The notes under the pieces: model-generated | What the model saw: only the letters and a program-made list of their open reading frames with translations | The model's database searches: none | Told to the model about the DNA's origin: nothing | IMG/VR virus record: IMGVR_UViG_3300046028_001478 | Coordinates: 1 to 23,019 of that record | Strand: one strand, 5' to 3' | DNA: 23,019 nt | Source: a virus | Shown: positions 11,039 to 16,747 of the stretch, in pieces | Layout of the letters: the number at the start of each line of letters is the position of its first letter | Position numbering within the stretch: position 1 is the stretch's first letter | Program-made: the position numbers and the translations under genes

Positions 11039-11450
11039 TCCAGCTTGATGTCCAATCAGCCTTAACTGGTTGGAGTTTAGCCCTGCGTTTAGCTAGGAAT
11101 AAGTCTTTCTTGTCTATATCCTGGTTAAGTCTATTACGTGCTATTTGCGCTCTTTCTTTTGATGTAAGAGGCGCAGGTCTAGCAGCATCGTTATAGTTGC
11201 CAATGCAAAACACAGGCACATAGACTTCTTTTATATCTTTTTGTTCTTTTATCCAGCTATCAATATAGACGAGCTTGATCTTGCGTAAATGCTTGATATA
11301 ACCTTTCATCCACTTATTAGAGATAAAGAACTGCTTTTCTATCTCCGTGTATGTTGATGGTGTCTCAAGAATTTTGAGCAACTTAGCCATTCTTACTTCA
11401 GATGGCTTTGTGTTGTATTTCATTTCACTCATCTTTGACGAATACTCCAT
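10983..11450 (-). CDS. Winged-helix-like DNA-binding protein
   Basis: 155 residues. Residues ~19-75 (VRMAKLLKILETPSTYTEIE, then KWMKGYIKHLRKIKLVYIDSW) have the helix-helix-recognition helix-wing pattern of small winged-helix phage proteins. The C-terminal half is basic (RAQIARNRLNQDIDKKD, LAKRRAKLQPVK) and probably disordered. It is the last gene of the leftward operon. The start is uncertain: ATG 11450 lies inside the upstream gene, and in-frame ATGs at 11432 and 11423 lie at the junction, the last one 1 nt past the upstream stop. The 3' end overlaps the metallophosphoesterase gene on the other strand. Likely a regulator; target unknown. Confidence 0.6.
   Translation of the reverse strand: MEYSSKMSEMKYNTKPSEVRMAKLLKILETPSTYTEIEKQFFISNKWMKGYIKHLRKIKLVYIDSWIKEQKDIKEVYVPVFCIGNYNDAARPAPLTSKERAQIARNRLNQDIDKKDLFLAKRRAKLQPVKADWTSSWIKPRSPVLESTQDLYPHQ
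11051..11074 (+). terminator. Hairpin after the metallophosphoesterase gene, possible terminator
   Basis: TCCAATCAG pairs with CTGGTTGGA through nine base pairs with one T-G wobble, around a 6-nt loop, 13 bp beyond the rightward stop codon. Only GTTTAG follows, not a T run, so it is not a textbook intrinsic terminator. It lies inside the 3' coding part of the leftward gene. It could slow or end rightward transcription at the convergent junction. Confidence 0.3.
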
Positions 11451-11727
11451 TGCAATTTAAGAAACCTTTGCGGTCTTTAATTTCTGCATAAGCATCTTGC
11501 AAGCAGTGAACGATAGAGATGTCTTTGATCGCGCAGTAGATTATTAGCGTAACCAGCACATCTCCGACACCATCTCTAATCGCTGGCATATCGTCTTTGA
11601 TCTCAGCGTCGCATAGCTCACCTAGCTCACTCACAGTTTTCATGAGTTGAGTGCTGGCTTCAGCATTGGGAATGATTCCGCGAGCTTCTGCCCATCGGAT
11701 AACGTCAAGCTCTAGTGATGTCCACAT
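11425..11727 (-). CDS. MazG-like nucleotide pyrophosphohydrolase
   Basis: 100 residues, one all-alpha NTP-PPase domain. Metal-binding Glu/Asp are visible: KTVSELGELCDA gives E34-x2-E37, and DGVGDVLVTLIIYC gives D52-x3-D56, the form common in single-domain phage MazG-like proteins rather than strict ExxD. The C-terminal LQDAYAEIKDRKG is also typical. Such enzymes hydrolyse NTPs or dNTPs to monophosphates and may clean the nucleotide pool or lower (p)ppGpp signalling; the substrate here is unknown. AAGGAT precedes the start, which forms a TAATG overlap with the upstream gene. Read in the leftward early operon. Confidence 0.83.
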   Translation of the reverse strand: MWTSLELDVIRWAEARGIIPNAEASTQLMKTVSELGELCDAEIKDDMPAIRDGVGDVLVTLIIYCAIKDISIVHCLQDAYAEIKDRKGFLNCNGVFVKDE

Positions 11728-11930
11728 TATTTACATATCCTTTTCTTTGCATCTTTAAAGTTGGACTCGAACATCCATCCGACACACTGTTTGTCAATGT
11801 CTGGCGATGTGACTGACGCTACTCCTTCAGTAAATCCGCGATGGTATTCGTGTTGCAGTCTGTTCATGACACCTAACCCAATGCCAGGTATAGACGCAAC
11901 AACCACAATTAAGATCATTCCCCAACGCAT
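11727..11930 (-). CDS. Small membrane protein, unknown function
   Basis: 67 residues. An N-terminal hydrophobic stretch (MILIVVVASIPGIGLGVM, residues ~5-22) acts as a single membrane span or uncleaved signal anchor. The rest is soluble, with two Cys (C49, C66) and a basic end. The start overlaps the preceding regulator gene by 16 bp, with AGG 5 bases upstream, and the stop overlaps the MazG-like start. It has no recognisable family. Its place in the early operon suggests a role at the host membrane, for instance exclusion or host interference, but nothing in the sequence proves this. Confidence 0.55.
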   Translation of the reverse strand: MRWGMILIVVVASIPGIGLGVMNRLQHEYHRGFTEGVASVTSPDIDKQCVGWMFESNFKDAKKRICK

Positions 11931-12115
11931 AGCTGCCTAATCTTTTTGATATCAATGCCAAAAGTCTCATGCACTCGCAGGATGATTTCTGCTGACGGGA
12001 CTATCTTTTTGTTGCGAATCTTTGACAGTGTAGAGATACCGATACCCATATGTAGGGCAATGGCTCGATCATTCTTGAATCCATGATTTTTAATCAAATA
12101 GTCTAACAATTCCAT
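11915..12115 (-). CDS. XRE/Cro-type helix-turn-helix regulator
   Basis: 66 residues, essentially one HTH domain. The pattern DRAIALHMGIGISTLSKIRN (residues ~16-35), followed by PSAEIILRVHETFGIDIKKI, is a standard XRE/Cro-CI five-helix fold with the recognition helix at about 27-35. No C-terminal dimerisation or LexA-like peptidase domain, so it resembles Cro more than a full CI repressor. AAAGGA lies 6 nt before the ATG. It is encoded inside the leftward operon, so it would be made with the recombination genes and could feed back on the divergent region at 13735-13995. Target and phage lifestyle are inferred only. Confidence 0.8.
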   Translation of the reverse strand: MELLDYLIKNHGFKNDRAIALHMGIGISTLSKIRNKKIVPSAEIILRVHETFGIDIKKIRQLCVGE

Positions 12116-12135
12116 TTTTATCCTTTATAAGTAGT

Positions 12136-12208
12136 GCAGGGTCACCAGTTCGAGAATACATGAAGGAGAATCTGGCCCCTGCTGCCGGTGTTACTCGCCA
12201 CTACCGGC
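12136..12208 (-). promoter_or_regulatory. Two adjacent hairpins in the leader of the HTH gene
   Basis: The 107-bp gap between the SSB-tail protein and the HTH regulator holds two inverted repeats. The first pairs GCAGGG (12136-12141) with CCCTGC (12177-12182), continued inside by CCAG/CTGG and TTC/GAA. The second pairs GCCGGT (12184-12189) with ACCGGC (12203-12208) around a 13-nt loop. Neither ends in a U run on either strand. In the leftward transcript they lie between two genes, suited to act as processing, stability or translational-control elements. Function unknown. Confidence 0.5.
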
Positions 12209-12222
12209 TAGGCGTGCAAACT

Positions 12223-12459
12223 CTAAAAAGGGATGTCGTCAATATCTAACGGTTTTTCTTCTACTGTTTTCTTTGCTTCTTTCAGCTTAAATGAGCAGCT
12301 CATAAACTTGCCTGATTTACCATCTTTGAGCCAGGCTGATACATAGACTGCGTTACCGTTTAAGTCTTTGCCATCGCCTGAATAGTCAGGATGATTGTCT
12401 GATTGCTTTTGCTGATTCTTGAAAAGTGAGAAGCTGCCTGGTTTTGGATCGTATGCCAT
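12223..12459 (-). CDS. Small single-stranded-DNA-binding-like protein with SSB-type C-terminal tail
   Basis: 78 residues from ATG 12459, chosen because AAAGGT lies 7 bases upstream; a longer frame overlaps the ERF gene. The body (SFSLFKNQQKQSDNHPDYSG, then NAVYVSAWLKDGKSGKFMSCSFKLK) looks like a compact beta-barrel. The C-terminus LDIDDIPF closely matches the acidic tip of bacterial SSB (DDDIPF), which binds host repair and replication proteins through the last Phe. It is directly downstream of the ERF annealing protein, so an ssDNA-handling partner is likely. ssDNA binding itself is inferred; the barrel is much shorter than classical SSB. Confidence 0.65.
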   Translation of the reverse strand: MAYDPKPGSFSLFKNQQKQSDNHPDYSGDGKDLNGNAVYVSAWLKDGKSGKFMSCSFKLKEAKKTVEEKPLDIDDIPF

Positions 12460-12469
12460 AAATTTACCT

Positions 12470-13108
12470 TTATCGTGTGGTGAACTTCTTAATTGCACTG
12501 CGCTGCTTGCTATCAAACAAACTCCATAATGCTGTTTTGCTATCTGCATCTAAATCTAATTCGTTAATGAAATCGACTGCACTTTGTACGTCATTCTTTG
12601 CTAGAAATCCAATAACCACTACGCCGATGCTGCGTATAGTTTCTTGATCTTCCTCTGACATAGATTGAAACACGTCAACAGTAATCGGTTTAGCTGACAC
12701 AGGCTCGCTAGAATCGATTGCATCGTGTTCTACTATCTCAAGTGCTGTGACGTATAAGTAACGGCGGCTATAGGTCTCTACTGCGCCTAAATTCTGTATT
12801 GGGTGGCAGCCTTTTAGCTGCGCTTCTGCCATTGGGCTAGTAAACGTTACACAACCACCATTCTCAGTATCAATGATCCGCAATGTAGCCAGCTCAGTAC
12901 CAAACGATACAACTGGACAAAGTTTTAACTCAAAGAAAATTGACTGAATTGCCGGTAGAAAGTCGCCAAGCTCAAAGTATTTATATCCTGCAAACTTATT
13001 GTGGCCTGACTTCTTTAGCTCTGTATTCTGCAATTTGATACGCGCTTGTTGCAGTTTTTCGTAGACTAGCCATTGTTGCTGTTCTTCTTGCTCTTGTTGC
13101 TGGCGCAT
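12470..13108 (-). CDS. erf: ERF-family single-strand annealing protein
   Basis: 212 residues. After a Gln/Glu-rich N-terminus (residues 1-12) comes the ERF core: LQQARIKLQNTELKKSGHNK, KFAGYKYFELGDFLPAIQSI and GAVETYSRRYLYVTALEIVE (~residues 108-127), the most diagnostic segment of the family, ending HDAIDSS. ERF proteins form rings or filaments on ssDNA and anneal complementary strands in RecA-independent phage recombination, as P22 Erf does in genome circularisation. The C-terminal ~70 residues are acidic and helical. AAAGGT precedes the start. It is followed by the SSB-tail protein, giving a compact recombination pair. Confidence 0.9.
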   Translation of the reverse strand: MRQQQEQEEQQQWLVYEKLQQARIKLQNTELKKSGHNKFAGYKYFELGDFLPAIQSIFFELKLCPVVSFGTELATLRIIDTENGGCVTFTSPMAEAQLKGCHPIQNLGAVETYSRRYLYVTALEIVEHDAIDSSEPVSAKPITVDVFQSMSEEDQETIRSIGVVVIGFLAKNDVQSAVDFINELDLDADSKTALWSLFDSKQRSAIKKFTTR

Positions 13109-13120
13109 GATTATTTACCT

Positions 13121-13294
13121 TTATTTGAATTTTTTAACGATGACATTATTGAATGTCCGAACTTCCGATAGAGTTTGAATTTCCTTTGCTTTTGCTTGCT
13201 CCTTTCTAATACGGTTAAAAGTTTTCTCAAGATCAGTTTTACCTGCTGGCACATACTTGAACCTTGCGTCTAAGATTGATTTAAAGTCATCCAT
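13121..13294 (-). CDS. Small basic hypothetical protein
   Basis: 57 residues, with a start at ATG 13294 preceded by AGGAAA at good distance. The protein opens MDDFKSILDARFKYVPAGKT and continues as a charged helix (KTFNRIRKEQAKAKEIQ). The AGKTD...TF.RIRK arrangement recurs in small phage proteins next to ERF/SSB genes, as I recall, without a known role. The stop is 12 bp before the ERF start. No catalytic motif. Coding status is supported by the ribosome-binding site, the fit into the operon and the lack of a competing frame. Confidence 0.68.
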   Translation of the reverse strand: MDDFKSILDARFKYVPAGKTDLEKTFNRIRKEQAKAKEIQTLSEVRTFNNVIVKKFK

Positions 13295-13302
13295 TTATTT
13301 TC

Positions 13303-13401
13303 CTACGTCAACCATGAAACCAAAATATATCCTGAAAACAATATGATAGCAATGACTTTAGGGTGACGTGCAAGCCAATCATCGGTAGCTAAAAGTTTCA
13401 T
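13303..13401 (-). CDS. Very small single-TM membrane protein
   Basis: 32 residues, MKLLATDDWLARHPKVIAII then LFSGYILVSWLT. The C-terminal half is one hydrophobic membrane helix preceded by a charged cytoplasmic-type N-terminus. Its ATG overlaps the stop of the upstream gene (ATGA), which suggests coupled translation. It fills a gap of about 100 bp that would otherwise be unexplained in a packed operon. No family recognised. Small membrane peptides in early phage operons often interfere with host processes, but there is no direct evidence here. Confidence 0.5.
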   Translation of the reverse strand: MKLLATDDWLARHPKVIAIILFSGYILVSWLT

Positions 13402-13589
13402 TGTTGTTCTTCTTTCATCTTCATAAAGTTAGCAGTTGTATAAGGTACTCCAATCGTTGTTGCTTTGCGCTGAACATCCCACAAGTGATTGATGAACTGG
13501 CCTAGATTACGAAACTCAGTGCCTAGCTCCTCATTGATCTGATCTAGAGCTATCTTCATTCCTGCCTCAATTCCTTCAGAGTAAGTCAC
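13398..13589 (-). CDS. Small hypothetical protein, GTG start
   Basis: 63 residues, opening MTYSEGIEAGMKIALDQINE. It starts at GTG 13589, with GGAGG placed 8 bases upstream; a nearby ATG is in the frame of the upstream gene and encodes only its end. The product is mainly helical with mixed charge. No motif or family recognised. It overlaps the upstream gene by 14 bp and the downstream small membrane protein by 4 bp, so it belongs to the leftward early operon. Confidence 0.65.
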   Translation of the reverse strand: MTYSEGIEAGMKIALDQINEELGTEFRNLGQFINHLWDVQRKATTIGVPYTTANFMKMKEEQQ

Positions 13590-13734
13590 TTTTCATTCCT
13601 CCAAAAAACCATTTATCGAATTTTGCGTTATTAAATGCTTCGCTTGCTGCTTTTGCTTCTAACCAGATCGCGTCTGCCTCATCTTCTTGATATGCTGCCA
13701 GGCAAACTAGCAGGTCATCTAATTCTTCAATCAT
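13576..13734 (-). CDS. First gene of the leftward operon: small acidic hypothetical protein
   Basis: 52 residues, acidic and Ala-rich (MIEELDDLLVCLAAYQEDEA, then DAIWLEAKAASEAFNNAKF). Start ATG 13734 is preceded by GGAGAC with 7-base spacing. It is the first open frame after the leftward promoter at 13762-13790, with a leader of about 20 nt. The last codons contain the ribosome-binding site GGAGG of the next gene. No family recognised; as the promoter-proximal product it is probably made early and in quantity. Confidence 0.6.
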   Translation of the reverse strand: MIEELDDLLVCLAAYQEDEADAIWLEAKAASEAFNNAKFDKWFFGGMKSDLL

Positions 13735-13761
13735 CTCTGTCTCCGTCGTTGGTATGACTGA

Positions 13762-13790
13762 ACTATAGCGACATAAGTTATTCGCTGCAA
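13762..13790 (-). promoter_or_regulatory. Sigma70-type promoter of the leftward early operon
   Basis: On the minus strand, TTGCAG (13790-13785) and TATAGT (13767-13762) are separated by exactly 17 bp; the predicted start is near 13755, about 20 nt before the first ATG. The -10 box matches the consensus at five of six positions and the -35 at three. The same two hexamers at the same spacing occur upstream of the RNA at 14693, which strengthens the call. Confidence 0.65.
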
Positions 13791-13798
13791 GAAATACT

Positions 13799-13837
13799 TT
13801 TCTATTGATATTTGTTTACTGATAGAAATAATCAATA
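13799..13837. repeat. Two interlocked inverted repeats in an AT-rich segment
   Basis: TTTCTAT (13799-13805) is the reverse complement of ATAGAAA (13822-13828), and TATTGAT (13803-13809) is the reverse complement of ATCAATA (13831-13837). The left arms overlap by three bases. The spacing of about two helical turns suits a dimeric DNA-binding protein, or alternative cruciforms in an easily melted segment. Confidence 0.5.
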
Positions 13838-13907
13838 ACACAAAACTAGAAACTTGTATATTATTTAGCTGTCTACCCGCCTAATTAGGGTTTTTTAAGC
13901 GGGGGCA

Positions 13908-13934
13908 AAATAGCACAAATAGCGTAAATAGCAG
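13908..13934. repeat. Three 9-bp iterons AAATAGCNN
   Basis: AAATAGC starts at 13908, 13917 and 13926, a strict 9-bp period, followed by a degenerate fourth copy (TAGCAAGCA). Short, evenly phased direct repeats in a gene-free region are typical of initiator-binding iterons or cooperative operator sites. Confidence 0.65.
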
Positions 13935-13947
13935 TAGCAAGCAGGAC

Positions 13948-13965
13948 TTTTGTCAGTTTTGTCAG
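13948..13965. repeat. Two 9-bp tandem repeats TTTTGTCAG
   Basis: Two perfect head-to-tail copies, 13948-13956 and 13957-13965. Each contains TTGTCA, a five-of-six match to the -35 consensus. The second copy lies 17 bp before TTTAAG (13982-13987), a weak -10, so the repeat may double as the rightward early promoter -35 with an overlapping operator. Confidence 0.5.
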
Positions 13966-13995
13966 TACCTAACTAGCCTCATTTAAGGAATTACA

Positions 13996-14181
13996 ATGAG
14001 TTTATGGCGTAAAAGGAGAATAAAAATGCAAGAATTAGCTAGATGTTCAGATTGTGGTTGGATTGGTGACTCAGAAGATGTAGAGACAGGTATTTGCGAT
14101 ATGGTGTTTGCTGATCCTGTTGATATTTGCCCTGAATGTGGAAATCCAGATTGCATAGCACCATACGAGGAGACTAAATAA
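13996..14181 (+). CDS. Small zinc-ribbon protein
   Basis: 61 residues. Two Cys pairs (CSDCGWIGD and CPECGNPDC) form a rubredoxin or zinc-ribbon knuckle; C34 and the final Cys may add ligands. Two in-frame starts are plausible: ATG 13996 with AAGGAA, or ATG 14026 with the stronger AAGGAG at 7-base spacing, which would remove a basic leader (MSLWRKRRIK). The weak rightward promoter proposed just upstream would fit the second. It opens the rightward early operon. Zinc ribbons of this size often contact nucleic acid or RNA polymerase, but no target is evident. Confidence 0.7.
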   Translation: MSLWRKRRIKMQELARCSDCGWIGDSEDVETGICDMVFADPVDICPECGNPDCIAPYEETK

Positions 14182-14567
14182 TGGACTTGCCAAAGAAAGA
14201 CAGCCGTAGATACCAGATTTGTGTTGCTTTTGCTAACTCTGGAATGATGACGTTGCATAGCTTAGTTGAGGAGCATGGCTTGTTTGGTTTTAGAGACAAG
14301 CAGCGGCTTTCATCTGAGATGAATTACTTATGCACTACTGGCTGCATTAAAAAGCTCAAAGAGGCTTATATGCCTACCTATGAGCTGCGTCTGGCTATAC
14401 AGTCGTTTGATAAGCCTGGGCTAGTTAAATCACGAGAGCCAGTACCGTTTAAAGAATTATCTGACAAGTTTATGTTGCCAAAGGTTAGCCCACGGGGTGA
14501 GCCACTAAGGGACATTTCATATATCGGTTTAGGAGCAAGCATTGCTGAACACGTCTACCGTTTCTAG
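14181..14567 (+). CDS. Winged-helix-like hypothetical protein
   Basis: 128 residues. Residues ~8-70 (SRRYQICVAFANSGMMTLHS, then DKQRLSSEMNYLCTTGCIKK and a YMPTYEL strand) resemble a small winged-helix domain; the C-terminal half is Pro/Lys-rich without motifs. It starts on the last base of the preceding stop (TAATG) and its end contains the start and ribosome-binding site of a further small gene. It is probably regulatory, from its fold and from sitting between two zinc-ribbon genes. No family name can be given with confidence. Confidence 0.6.
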   Translation: MDLPKKDSRRYQICVAFANSGMMTLHSLVEEHGLFGFRDKQRLSSEMNYLCTTGCIKKLKEAYMPTYELRLAIQSFDKPGLVKSREPVPFKELSDKFMLPKVSPRGEPLRDISYIGLGASIAEHVYRF

Positions 14568-14685
14568 TCCTGACTATACGTTTAGGCAAAAGTTCTGCCC
14601 AGGCTGTAAACGGGCTAGATCAGAAAAGAACTTTAATGGCGGAGTTCTATGCAAGATTTGCAGACTGCGTAAAGTTAAGCTATAG
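14542..14685 (+). CDS. 47-residue zinc-ribbon protein with TTG start
   Basis: The frame is open from 14533 to the TAG at 14683-14685 and encodes CPGCKRARSEKNFNGG followed by VLCKICRLRKVKL: two C-x2-C pairs 16 residues apart with a basic tail, a clear treble-clef or zinc-ribbon signature. No ATG exists in the frame. TTG 14542 is preceded by AGGAG at 6-base spacing (14531-14535), so it is the likely start, overlapping the previous gene by 26 bp. The protein could bind nucleic acid through its Arg/Lys-rich end. The TATAGT box of the following RNA promoter overlaps its last codons. Confidence 0.7.
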   Translation: MLNTSTVSSPDYTFRQKFCPGCKRARSEKNFNGGVLCKICRLRKVKL

Positions 14686-14686
14686 T
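14658..14686 (+). promoter_or_regulatory. Putative sigma70 promoter of the structured RNA
   Basis: TTGCAG (14658-14663), 17-bp spacer, TATAGT (14681-14686), giving a predicted start near 14693. Both hexamers and the spacing are identical to the leftward promoter at 13762-13790, and in both the -10 box is preceded by GC. The start would fall four bases before the first paired base of the RNA. The promoter overlaps the end of the small zinc-ribbon gene. Confidence 0.6.
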
Positions 14687-14692
14687 AGCTAC

Positions 14693-14797
14693 GTGCTTGG
14701 CAGCGCGTAAACGAGTAAGCCTTAGATGGGACTCTGCTGGTTACTCACCAGTCTGCCAACGATCTTATGATCGAGAGTCTCACCTAGGGCTTTTTTT
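14693..14797 (+). ncRNA. Candidate phage structured RNA: three-way junction with pseudoknot and intrinsic terminator
   Basis: About 105 nt. P1 is an 18-bp stem (14718-14735 with 14774-14791; one A-C mismatch, two G-U pairs). Inside it are P2 (14736-14741 with 14747-14752, 5-nt loop) and P3 (14760-14764 with 14769-14773, loop TTAT). The only unpaired bases of the junction, CTGCCAA (14753-14759), are perfectly complementary to TTGGCAG (14697-14703) at the predicted 5' end. Seven T follow P1. The RNA may act in trans, or as a leader attenuating the replication operon whose first ATG is at 14810. It matches no family I can name. A tRNA was considered: the 7-bp helix abuts a 7-nt-loop arm, but T-loop, D-arm and CCA features are missing. 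Confidence 0.7.
14718..14797 (+). terminator. Intrinsic terminator formed by P1 and a T tract
   Basis: The long P1 stem ends in CTAGGGCT, whose last T begins the run of seven T (14791-14797), the usual rho-independent layout except that the hairpin loop is replaced by two internal hairpins. It lies 12 bp before the ATG of the replication operon, so full termination there would isolate that operon unless it is bypassed. Confidence 0.7.
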
Positions 14798-14809
14798 ATT
14801 GGAAAAGCT

Positions 14810-15463
14810 ATGCACTACTATCAATTTAATATTGGAGATTATGCTAGTCACACTAGGCATTTAACCATTGTCGAAGATGCAATTTATAGGCGATTGCTTG
14901 ATGCTTATTACCTGCATGAACATCCGTTGAACGCCTGTACAACGTCTGTTGCACGTCAGATCAACGCGAGAGAGTACGAGTCAGAAATTCAAACTATTTT
15001 GGAGGAATTTTTTGCATTAACGGAAGATGGTTGGGTCAATTTTCGTGCAGATAAAGAGATAAAACACTTCCATTCCAAGATAGAACAGGCTCAAAAGGCA
15101 GGCAGAGCCTCAGCTGTAGCAAGATTGAACAGACGTTCAACATTCGTACCAACGGATGTTCAACCAAACATAAAACAAGAAACAATAAACAATAAACATA
15201 GTATTAGCAAACCAGACGATGTAATCCTTTCAGTTTGGACTGACTTTGTAGCTCATCGAAAACTAAAGAAAGCAACTATTACCGAAACGGTAATTAATTC
15301 AATTCGCAAAGAAGCTAAAAAAGCTGGCATACCTTTTGAGGATGCTTTGGCTGAAACTTGCGCTAGAGGTTGGCAAGGCTTTAAGGCTGAGTGGTATAAA
15401 AAGCAAGAACCTGCAAAACCAGTATCAAAACTTAAATACTGGGAAAAAGGTTATCAGCCATGA
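14810..15463 (+). CDS. DUF1376 (YdaU-type) replication-associated protein
   Basis: 217 residues. The N-terminus MHYYQFNIGDYASHTRHLT, followed by VEDAIYRRLLDAYYLHEHPL, is the signature of DUF1376, found in phage replication modules and thought to act like an initiator or helicase-loading protein. A linker of ~40 polar residues (110-150) leads to a C-terminal helical domain (VWTDFVAHRKLKKATITETV, then GIPFEDALAETCARGWQGFK) that resembles the DnaT/DnaD-like tails of loaders. GGAAAAG lies upstream of the ATG, directly after the T tract. It is followed two genes later by the helicase. A loader role is inferred from context. Confidence 0.8.
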   Translation: MHYYQFNIGDYASHTRHLTIVEDAIYRRLLDAYYLHEHPLNACTTSVARQINAREYESEIQTILEEFFALTEDGWVNFRADKEIKHFHSKIEQAQKAGRASAVARLNRRSTFVPTDVQPNIKQETINNKHSISKPDDVILSVWTDFVAHRKLKKATITETVINSIRKEAKKAGIPFEDALAETCARGWQGFKAEWYKKQEPAKPVSKLKYWEKGYQP

Positions 15464-15810
15464 AAGGCCATGTAGAACTACTCAAGTTGCGTATAGAAGG
15501 TTTTAAACCAAGAGGCTTGTGGGTGTGCTACGGACATGATCCACTAAAGGGCTGGAATACTTGGTCTAAGGCTGGCGATACATTGGCATTTCCTGAAATT
15601 GAGATATTGCCGATAGAAAATATCAATCAACTAGACTTGCGGTTTGCTGTAGGATTAACTGTACACATTTCAAGTAATGAACCCCTTGCAAAACTAAAGA
15701 AAATTCATAACGCTTTTGTTTTTGCCAAGGCTAAATCGGTTTTCGTATCCACTAAAAAATGCTTAATCTTACCTTCAGGGAGCGTATTAGATGACTATGT
15801 TCCTGCGTGA
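15460..15810 (+). CDS. Hypothetical protein between replication genes
   Basis: 116 residues, alpha/beta with no catalytic motif I recognise. Start ATG overlaps the previous stop as ATGA, with AAAGG upstream. It begins MKGHVELLKLRIEGFKPRGL and contains VWVCYGH-like aromatic strands and a short Lys-rich helix (EPLAKLKKIHNAFVFAKAKS). The 3' end overlaps the helicase gene by 20 bp, so it is tightly coupled to it and probably works with the replication proteins. No family assignment is possible. Confidence 0.6.
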   Translation: MKGHVELLKLRIEGFKPRGLWVCYGHDPLKGWNTWSKAGDTLAFPEIEILPIENINQLDLRFAVGLTVHISSNEPLAKLKKIHNAFVFAKAKSVFVSTKKCLILPSGSVLDDYVPA

Positions 15811-16747
15811 AGATATTGATTTCTCAGCGTATCTGCGAGCTACCGATCTCAAGCAAAACGTCAAGGACGTATCGACATGGGTTGATGAGCTTACAGACAA
15901 TCTTGAAAATCCTGTTATCGAAAAATCTACTCCTATGGAATGGGAGTGTACAAAGAACTTTGCATTTAGACCTGGTGAGGTAACTGTTTGGGCAGGTTCC
16001 AATGGTGGCGGTAAGTCTTTGCTGACAGGCCAGATTGCACTAGGTTTAGTCAAGCGCGGCGAGAAAGTATGCGTTGCTAGCTTTGAGATGAAACCCAAAG
16101 TATCGATTAAACGGCTTATAAGGCAGTTTGCAGGCGAAAACGTCGAGCAGTTGGCATCCACACATGGACTGCCCTACAAACGCGCCTTGTATGACCGTTT
16201 TAAGGCTTTTGGTACTGGCAATATTTGGTTCTATGACCAACAGGGTACGGTGACAGCAGATCAGGTTATCTCGATGGCAAGATATTGCGCTGTTGAGTTA
16301 GGTGTAACTCATGTGTTTATTGATAGCTTGATGAAGTGCGTTGCTGGCGAGGATGACTACAACGGTCAAAAGCGCTTTGTTGATGAGATCACTGCATTGG
16401 CTAGAGATCACAATATCCATGTACATCTTGTCCACCATATTCGAAAATTGCAGTCTGACGAGTTGATGCCGAACAAAAATGATTTGCGCGGCAGTAGCTC
16501 TATCACGGATCAGGTTGACAATGTGTTTATCGTCTGGCGCAATAAGAAAAAAGAGAACGAAGTCAATAAAGGTATGGAGACAGATATGTCTGCGCCTGAC
16601 ATGATTTTAATGAACGAAAAGCAGCGAAACGGAGAGTCTACTGAGTGGTATCACATGTGGTTCCATTGGGAAAGTAGCCAGTTTATTGAGAAATGGCAGG
16701 GCTTTCCTAGTGACTTTGACAATAAAGGACGGTTTAGAGGTGCATGA
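15791..16747 (+). CDS. DnaB-type replicative helicase (RecA-fold, no primase domain)
   Basis: 318 residues, similar to the C-terminal motor of T7 gp4 and Twinkle. Walker A is GSNGGGKS at 69-76, the catalytic Glu is in SFEM (E99), Walker B is HVFIDSL (D178), and HHIRK (215-219) and DLRGSSSITDQVDNVFIVWR (231-250) match the later DnaB motifs and arginine-finger region. There is no zinc or TOPRIM primase region, so priming must come from the host or from a gene outside the window. GGGAG lies 8 bases before the start. It would be a ring-shaped 5'-3' unwinding enzyme at the phage fork. Confidence 0.88.
   Translation: MTMFLREDIDFSAYLRATDLKQNVKDVSTWVDELTDNLENPVIEKSTPMEWECTKNFAFRPGEVTVWAGSNGGGKSLLTGQIALGLVKRGEKVCVASFEMKPKVSIKRLIRQFAGENVEQLASTHGLPYKRALYDRFKAFGTGNIWFYDQQGTVTADQVISMARYCAVELGVTHVFIDSLMKCVAGEDDYNGQKRFVDEITALARDHNIHVHLVHHIRKLQSDELMPNKNDLRGSSSITDQVDNVFIVWRNKKKENEVNKGMETDMSAPDMILMNEKQRNGESTEWYHMWFHWESSQFIEKWQGFPSDFDNKGRFRGA

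Follow-up and report, generated by a model that had tools for sequence, protein, structure and literature searches.

A knotted RNA family in front of phage replication genes that probably controls when replication switches on

Which RNA is encoded at positions 14693-14797 of a 23,019-nucleotide viral DNA (IMG/VR record IMGVR_UViG_3300046028_001478; this whole stretch is called the window below), and what is its role at the entry to a replication operon? The region belongs to a family of 105-letter knotted RNAs that fronts replication genes in many freshwater and marine phages. It resembles no catalogued RNA family and is naturally interchanged with the int-alpA RNA, and it probably controls when phage replication switches on.

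Fold, promoter and terminator of the window RNA

All features of the element lie on the plus strand. It is preceded by a candidate sigma-70-like promoter, TTTGCA / N18 / TATAGT (14657-14686), recognised by -10 and -35 matches in the window and in homologues; its -10 box overlaps the stop codon of a small Cys-rich (Zn-finger-like) ORF (14542-14685). At the inferred transcript start there is a 5' hairpin, P0 (14691-14708), identified by pairing in homologues, and its loop is the 5' strand of the first pseudoknot, PK1 (TTGGCAG, 14697-14703). The 3' strand of PK1 (CTGCCAA, 14753-14759), assigned by covariation and by scans with the partner base left free, forms the junction between hairpins P2 (14736-14752, with a conserved G-U closing pair and a C-T-R-G stem) and P3 (14760-14773), both identified by covariation. 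The second pseudoknot, PK2, pairs GAGTA immediately 5' of P1 (14713-14717; loop-swap control and covariation scan) with TACTC in the P2 loop (14742-14746). The closing stem P1 pairs 14717-14735 with 14774-14792 (folding energy and covariation) and consists of a lower part of nine base pairs (5' strand 14717-14725), a mismatch at 14726 and an upper part of nine base pairs (5' strand 14727-14735). P1 is the terminator stem and is followed by the U-tract, recognised by sequence (14791-14797).

The initial annotation had correctly located the two hairpins, the perfectly complementary TTGGCAG and CTGCCAA strands, the run of seven T and the gene that starts 12 nt further downstream. Its closing stem is also present; however, what had been described as an 18-bp stem is composed of 9 + 8-9 bp around the mismatch. 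All the helices named there are real, but P0 and PK2 had been missed.

The minimum folding energy of the window RNA is -44.1 kcal/mol (z -4.75). Dinucleotide shuffles average -28.4 +/- 3.3, and none of 200 folds as well. By chance, the pattern TTGGCAG-N20..50-CTGCCAA would appear 0.01 times in a sequence such as the window; it is observed once. A stable GC-containing stem of 17-19 bp followed by U7 has the form of an intrinsic terminator. This stem and the -10 box conserved in homologues bear out the promoter and terminator initially ascribed to the RNA.

Homologues, covariation and gene context

The search with the downstream DUF1376 protein produced 80 viral loci. Their upstream regions carry at least two structured types, the window RNA (type A) and int-alpA, RF02996 (type B). 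Ten loci were scanned against Rfam, and three of them matched int-alpA above its gathering score and four below it. A motif scan yielded at least 120 stretches, mostly type A, from which at least 107 type A copies with 84 distinct sequences were collected. Since members were found by motif and retained if they had TTGGCRG and a T-run (T4 or more), PK1 and the U-tract are partly selected for in this set. The covariance model R1 scores 86-108 bits at each tested locus and about 60 bits in divergent members. About 150 copies with distinct flanks were observed in viral contigs. Bacterial copies were found in one Polynucleobacter isolate and one betaproteobacterial metagenome-assembled genome, together with one divergent copy (299 genomes of the family), and there was no further copy in 369 genomes of the class. 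A match in Hahella was rejected as coding-like. Only two relatives, both uncultured, were found in phage records, and a literature search with little subscription coverage returned no description of this RNA.

When 45 diverse homologues are aligned with MAFFT, 94.4% of the cells of a 42-pair structure are paired, compared to 77.0% in shuffled data, and double-sided changes occur at 31 pairs, including 17 of the 19 pairs of P1. With a covariation score of 0.519, the structure stands well above shuffled data (0.184) and slid partners (0.111 or less). Among the matches listed (84 distinct sequences), P0, PK1, PK2, P1, P2 and P3 are nearly always paired, with many double changes. All seven pairs of PK1 are formed in 84 of 84 sequences. 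The three loop-proximal pairs of P0 are likewise formed in all 84, with three to five pair types, and the fourth in 75. PK2 has on average 5.33 contiguous base pairs, compared to 2.66 when loops are swapped between sequences (n=84, 1000 shuffles, maximum 3.11); in 76 of the 84 sequences it occupies the P2 loop as far as the 3' end, leaving 1-2 nt on the 5' side, and it lengthens with the loop. When every pair of columns, up to 26 nt downstream, is scanned for covariation with no structure given, the known helices including PK2 are recovered; no other well-supported helix, and in particular no antiterminator helix, was observed. Covariation thus supports every helix of the predicted fold, as well as the initial suggestion of a conserved structured RNA with a real PK1. 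The domain enclosed by P1 and the U-tract, that is, P2, P3, the junction and the pseudoknot strands, is conserved.

The selection bias at PK1 was removed in scans set beforehand, with position 4, 5 or 6 of the 5' strand changed and the partner base unconstrained. At position 4, 56 matches were A:T and two were T:C. For one of the latter (L236), the full sequence shows a chance upstream match adjoining an intact TTGGCGG/CCGCCAA, and the other (L258), with the same spacing, is taken to be one too. At position 5, all 28 matches with a T-run were A:T or T:A; four further A:T matches and one G:G match had no T-run. The single match at position 6 was C:G. All of the approximately 85 real RNAs in these scans have the matching partner. 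Changes in PK1 without compensation, which according to the initial annotation would speak against the structure, were therefore sought here, and no real RNA with such a change was found. The family contains at least eight different compensated heptamer pairs, including TTGGTCG/CGACCAG in L080. Twelve further partner mismatches occur in the wider copy set, and we infer that these, like the G:G match, are chance upstream TTG matches or non-RNA. Taken as a sequence family, the window RNA and its homologues are close to certain to be a real structured RNA absent from Rfam.

A -10-like hexamer occurs at a fixed distance in the 84 homologues (mean match 4.88/6, shuffled 3.40), in most copies 10-13 nt 5' of TTGGC, and the -35 match is 3.31, compared to 2.54 in shuffled sequences. 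Because of this fixed distance, the transcription start is placed in the 5' strand of P0. A start codon in the sense direction lies 4-20 nt (mostly 8-13) 3' of the U-tract in 152 of 159 copies. In the window it belongs to the first gene of the replication operon (14810-15463), a member of the DUF1376 / primosomal-protein family (PF07120, E 1.8e-22; PHROG primosomal protein, E 3.8e-32) that starts 12 nt after the U-tract. The same operon encodes a DnaB-like replicative helicase (15791-16747; PF03796, E 4.5e-17), in agreement with the initial assignment of the RNA to the front of a replication operon. The window has a lambda-like early-region layout (11425-16747), with MazG-like (by eye), CI/Cro-like HTH and ERF genes leftward and small Zn-ribbon genes, the RNA, the primosomal protein and the DnaB-like helicase rightward.

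The gene following the RNA is usually the first replication gene; the families observed there are unrelated to one another: DUF1376/primosomal, O-like or DnaD-like, HNH (by eye) and small ORFs. The upstream genes vary as well and are often a Cro-like HTH gene ending there (by eye) or a small Zn-finger ORF; relatives of the small Cys-rich ORF of the window precede both type A and int-alpA RNAs. In six GC-rich loci (L107, L134, L171, L177, L178, L207) an HNH gene (NUMOD-like or AP2-like, by eye) directly 3' of the RNA replaces the replication gene, and in L207 the U-tract is lost.

In Polynucleobacter sp. UK-Kesae-W10 (L204:3033-3096) operator-like palindromes AACAANNNNTTGTT, two perfect and one imperfect, lie over the RNA promoter and adjoin a divergent gene for a CI-like repressor. 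This suggests that the promoter is under repressor control. Since operator-like sites are present, it is perhaps off in the lysogen.

The sequence following the U-tract is often complementary to the 3' end of P1 (14784-14809 in the window, and homologues), for example GCTTTT with AAAAGC, or TTAGCC with GGGCTAA in L185. The complementarity to the P1 3' strand is 12.5, compared to 11.6 for swapped sequences (maximum 12.0). A helix at this place was rejected, as the signal is weak, is influenced by the ribosome-binding sequences and by common descent, and shows no covariation in the scan.

Exchange with int-alpA and comparison with known RNAs

Type A and int-alpA RNAs replace each other in nature. 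A type A locus (L173) and an int-alpA locus (L070) are 98% identical over 735 bp ending 3 nt 5' of the RNA, share the -10 box, and then diverge completely. In another case (type A L063; int-alpA L042, L051 and L039) the flanks are homologous on both sides, and the homology comes as near to the RNA as approximately 13 nt upstream and 8 nt downstream. Both types lie between a promoter and a replication gene. As the flanks are homologous and the RNA is swapped, the two share one slot between the transcription start and the ribosome-binding site, and they are probably equivalent in function. At the int-alpA loci with swapped flanks no strong terminator is evident, and a promoter of the same type faces the same gene; for these reasons the slot looks like a leader.

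The two RNAs are alike in having a three-way junction closed by P1, two hairpins, a U-rich stretch after P1, a pseudoknot, transcription starting at the RNA, and the same slot before the same genes. However, the single pseudoknot of int-alpA involves a strand located 3' of P1, and int-alpA contains a GAAAAG/CCUG core, whereas the window RNA has two pseudoknots, formed by strands 5' of P1. There is no sequence match either way: in the int-alpA loci to which the R1 model was applied, nothing was found up to E 1.

The P3 loop of int-alpA complements its own pseudoknot arm (13.9, swapped 9.8) and, more weakly, the ribosome-binding region (11.5, swapped 10.1; 0/1000). The latter sites lie in the last approximately 50 nt before the DUF1376 start (L005, L009, L021, L051, L066, L077 and others), and such a second site hints at translational control, perhaps a translational switch, in int-alpA. 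A third, unrelated-looking structured leader was observed about 150 nt upstream of the DUF1376 gene in L036, L041, L053, L057, L058 and L060 (for example, GTGGAAAGC ... TTTCCAC plus further complementary segments). L053, the only one of these loci scanned against Rfam, had no RNA match at the leader and a tRNA elsewhere.

No Rfam family, including int-alpA and C4, was found at gathering thresholds in the window or at E up to 5 in the region 14600-14850, consistent with the initial statement that no known class could be named. The initial annotation had also pointed to a likeness to the acceptor/T-arm stack of tRNA, which is at odds with the ARAGORN result: it finds no tRNA or tmRNA cloverleaf. 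In the pistol ribozyme the loop of a 5' hairpin pairs with a junction strand, so that the P0/PK1 topology is pistol-like. However, the window RNA has an extra hairpin, a second pseudoknot and a long terminator stem, and neither an Rfam match to pistol or another self-cleaving ribozyme nor a conserved catalytic or other unpaired core was observed. A ribozyme or tRNA-like element is the least credible of the readings considered, being extremely improbable.

The CI / C4 RNAs of phage P4 are structured as well and lie in the leader of an operon for phage replication. They are immunity RNAs, whereas the operator-like sites at the Polynucleobacter promoter suggest that it is off in the lysogen; the C4 / P4 CI antisense RNA was rejected in the absence of a covariance-model match. 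A type III toxin-antitoxin RNA was rejected too: the pair of pseudoknot strands occurs once in the window, there are no tandem repeats, and the downstream gene encodes a replication protein, not a ToxN-like one. Among the tested loci, the only one with two R1 matches has one that is weak and on the reverse strand.

In the HMP-PP (thiS) riboswitch a conserved domain lies within an intrinsic terminator stem, with a pseudoknot possibly formed in an alternative fold (PMC6478431). A conserved domain embedded in the terminator is found in the window RNA as well. The two differ in sequence, size and gene context, and HMP-PP binds a ligand, whereas none is assigned to the window RNA. Furthermore, the two folds of HMP-PP are mutually exclusive at the base of the terminator (PMC6478431), whereas according to modelling those of the window RNA can coexist, and the covariation scan gave no mutually exclusive conserved antiterminator of the HMP-PP type. 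The small RNA IsrK of prophage Gifsy-1 is transcribed from a promoter of its own; some transcription passes its terminator and enters downstream genes, and IsrK acts in trans on this longer read-through transcript, to which it binds (PMC4825925). The layout of promoter and terminator is similar in the window RNA; no structural similarity is claimed. The RNA class itself has no known relative, and its likely mode of action has precedents, HMP-PP and IsrK for parts of it.

Possible mode of action

The initial annotation had proposed a switch in which the TTGGCAG/CTGCCAA pairing competes with the terminator stem. This does not agree with the fold: PK1 involves only the P0 loop and the junction strand, and no nucleotide of P1. 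Mutual exclusion of PK2 and P1 was rejected as well, as in coarse rigid-helix modelling all helices are accommodated without violation once P1 is left open at its two distal A-U pairs; with all 19 pairs closed the model fails. Since the helices fit together in this way, the mature RNA is most likely one compact knotted fold rather than two exclusive ones. With no covarying antiterminator, and PK2 coexisting with all but these two pairs, a classic two-state switch is not supported.

In our opinion the family is somewhat more probably than not a promoter-proximal leader and attenuator of the replication operon, acting in cis. Transcription would start at P0, and the first approximately 100 nt would fold as a compact three-way junction with two pseudoknots. 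The closing stem and the U-tract would form an intrinsic terminator, with the ribosome-binding site of the first replication gene immediately after it. The element would set in cis how much transcription from the early promoter enters the operon, and the terminated product would accumulate as a stable RNA of about 105 nt. When the window RNA is folded sequentially, the mutually nested PK1 and PK2 form before the 3' strand of P1 is available, and the terminator closes last. The mean helix energies are -10.8 (PK1), -6.4 (PK2) and -12.3 kcal/mol (lower P1). Both pseudoknots could thus pair before the 3' half of P1 is made, and the terminator would have to close in temporal competition with a nascent RNA that is knotted already. 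As PK2 pins the 5' end of P1 while RNA polymerase holds the 3' strand, P1 closure may be hindered until PK2 opens. Read-through could then be tuned by a metabolite, a protein or the state of RNA polymerase that stabilises or opens the knot. A bolder version, which we regard as unlikely, is a new class of riboregulator, a topological attenuator: the two nascent pseudoknots pin the 5' strand of the terminator, whose stem closes only when the knot is released, so that a conserved host signal is sensed and phage DNA replication is gated; int-alpA would be an unrelated RNA doing the same job, perhaps on translation.

The main competing explanation is an autonomous small RNA acting in trans by binding a host or phage protein, with the downstream gene read from other promoters; upstream promoters could indeed also feed the replication operon. 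The RNA has its own promoter, and its apparently strong terminator (17-19 bp, U7-9) would be just as suitable for a free small RNA. Every conserved nucleotide is paired, all helices are able to coexist, as in a stable RNP-type RNA, and the pseudoknots fill the junction and loop lengths exactly. However, a sense gene follows the U-tract by 4-20 nt in about 95% of copies, there is no exposed conserved seed for antisense pairing, and the slot is common to int-alpA, an apparent 5' leader. The evidence of position favours action in cis, and we consider the trans-acting RNA possible but doubtful, the cis-acting leader and attenuator being better supported.

It is rather improbable that the RNA is a protective or insulating leader with no regulatory role, stabilising the mRNA or blocking upstream transcription. 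Such a role agrees with the inferred pairing of the 5' end in P0 and with the position of the fold directly 5' of the ribosome-binding site. However, the PK1 sequence is conserved beyond pairing, two precise pseudoknots are kept where a plain hairpin would suffice, and a terminator would do little to stabilise the message that follows it.

The RNA family described here constitutes a widespread, well-defined RNA class, absent from Rfam, at the entry to phage replication operons. The natural swap with int-alpA, where each RNA can probably take over the task of the other at the same slot, provides a functional handle on an orphan family. The covariance model and the genome copy in Polynucleobacter strain UK-Kesae-W10 are starting points for further work. 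If the knotted terminator is regulated, it would represent a new way to gate phage replication.
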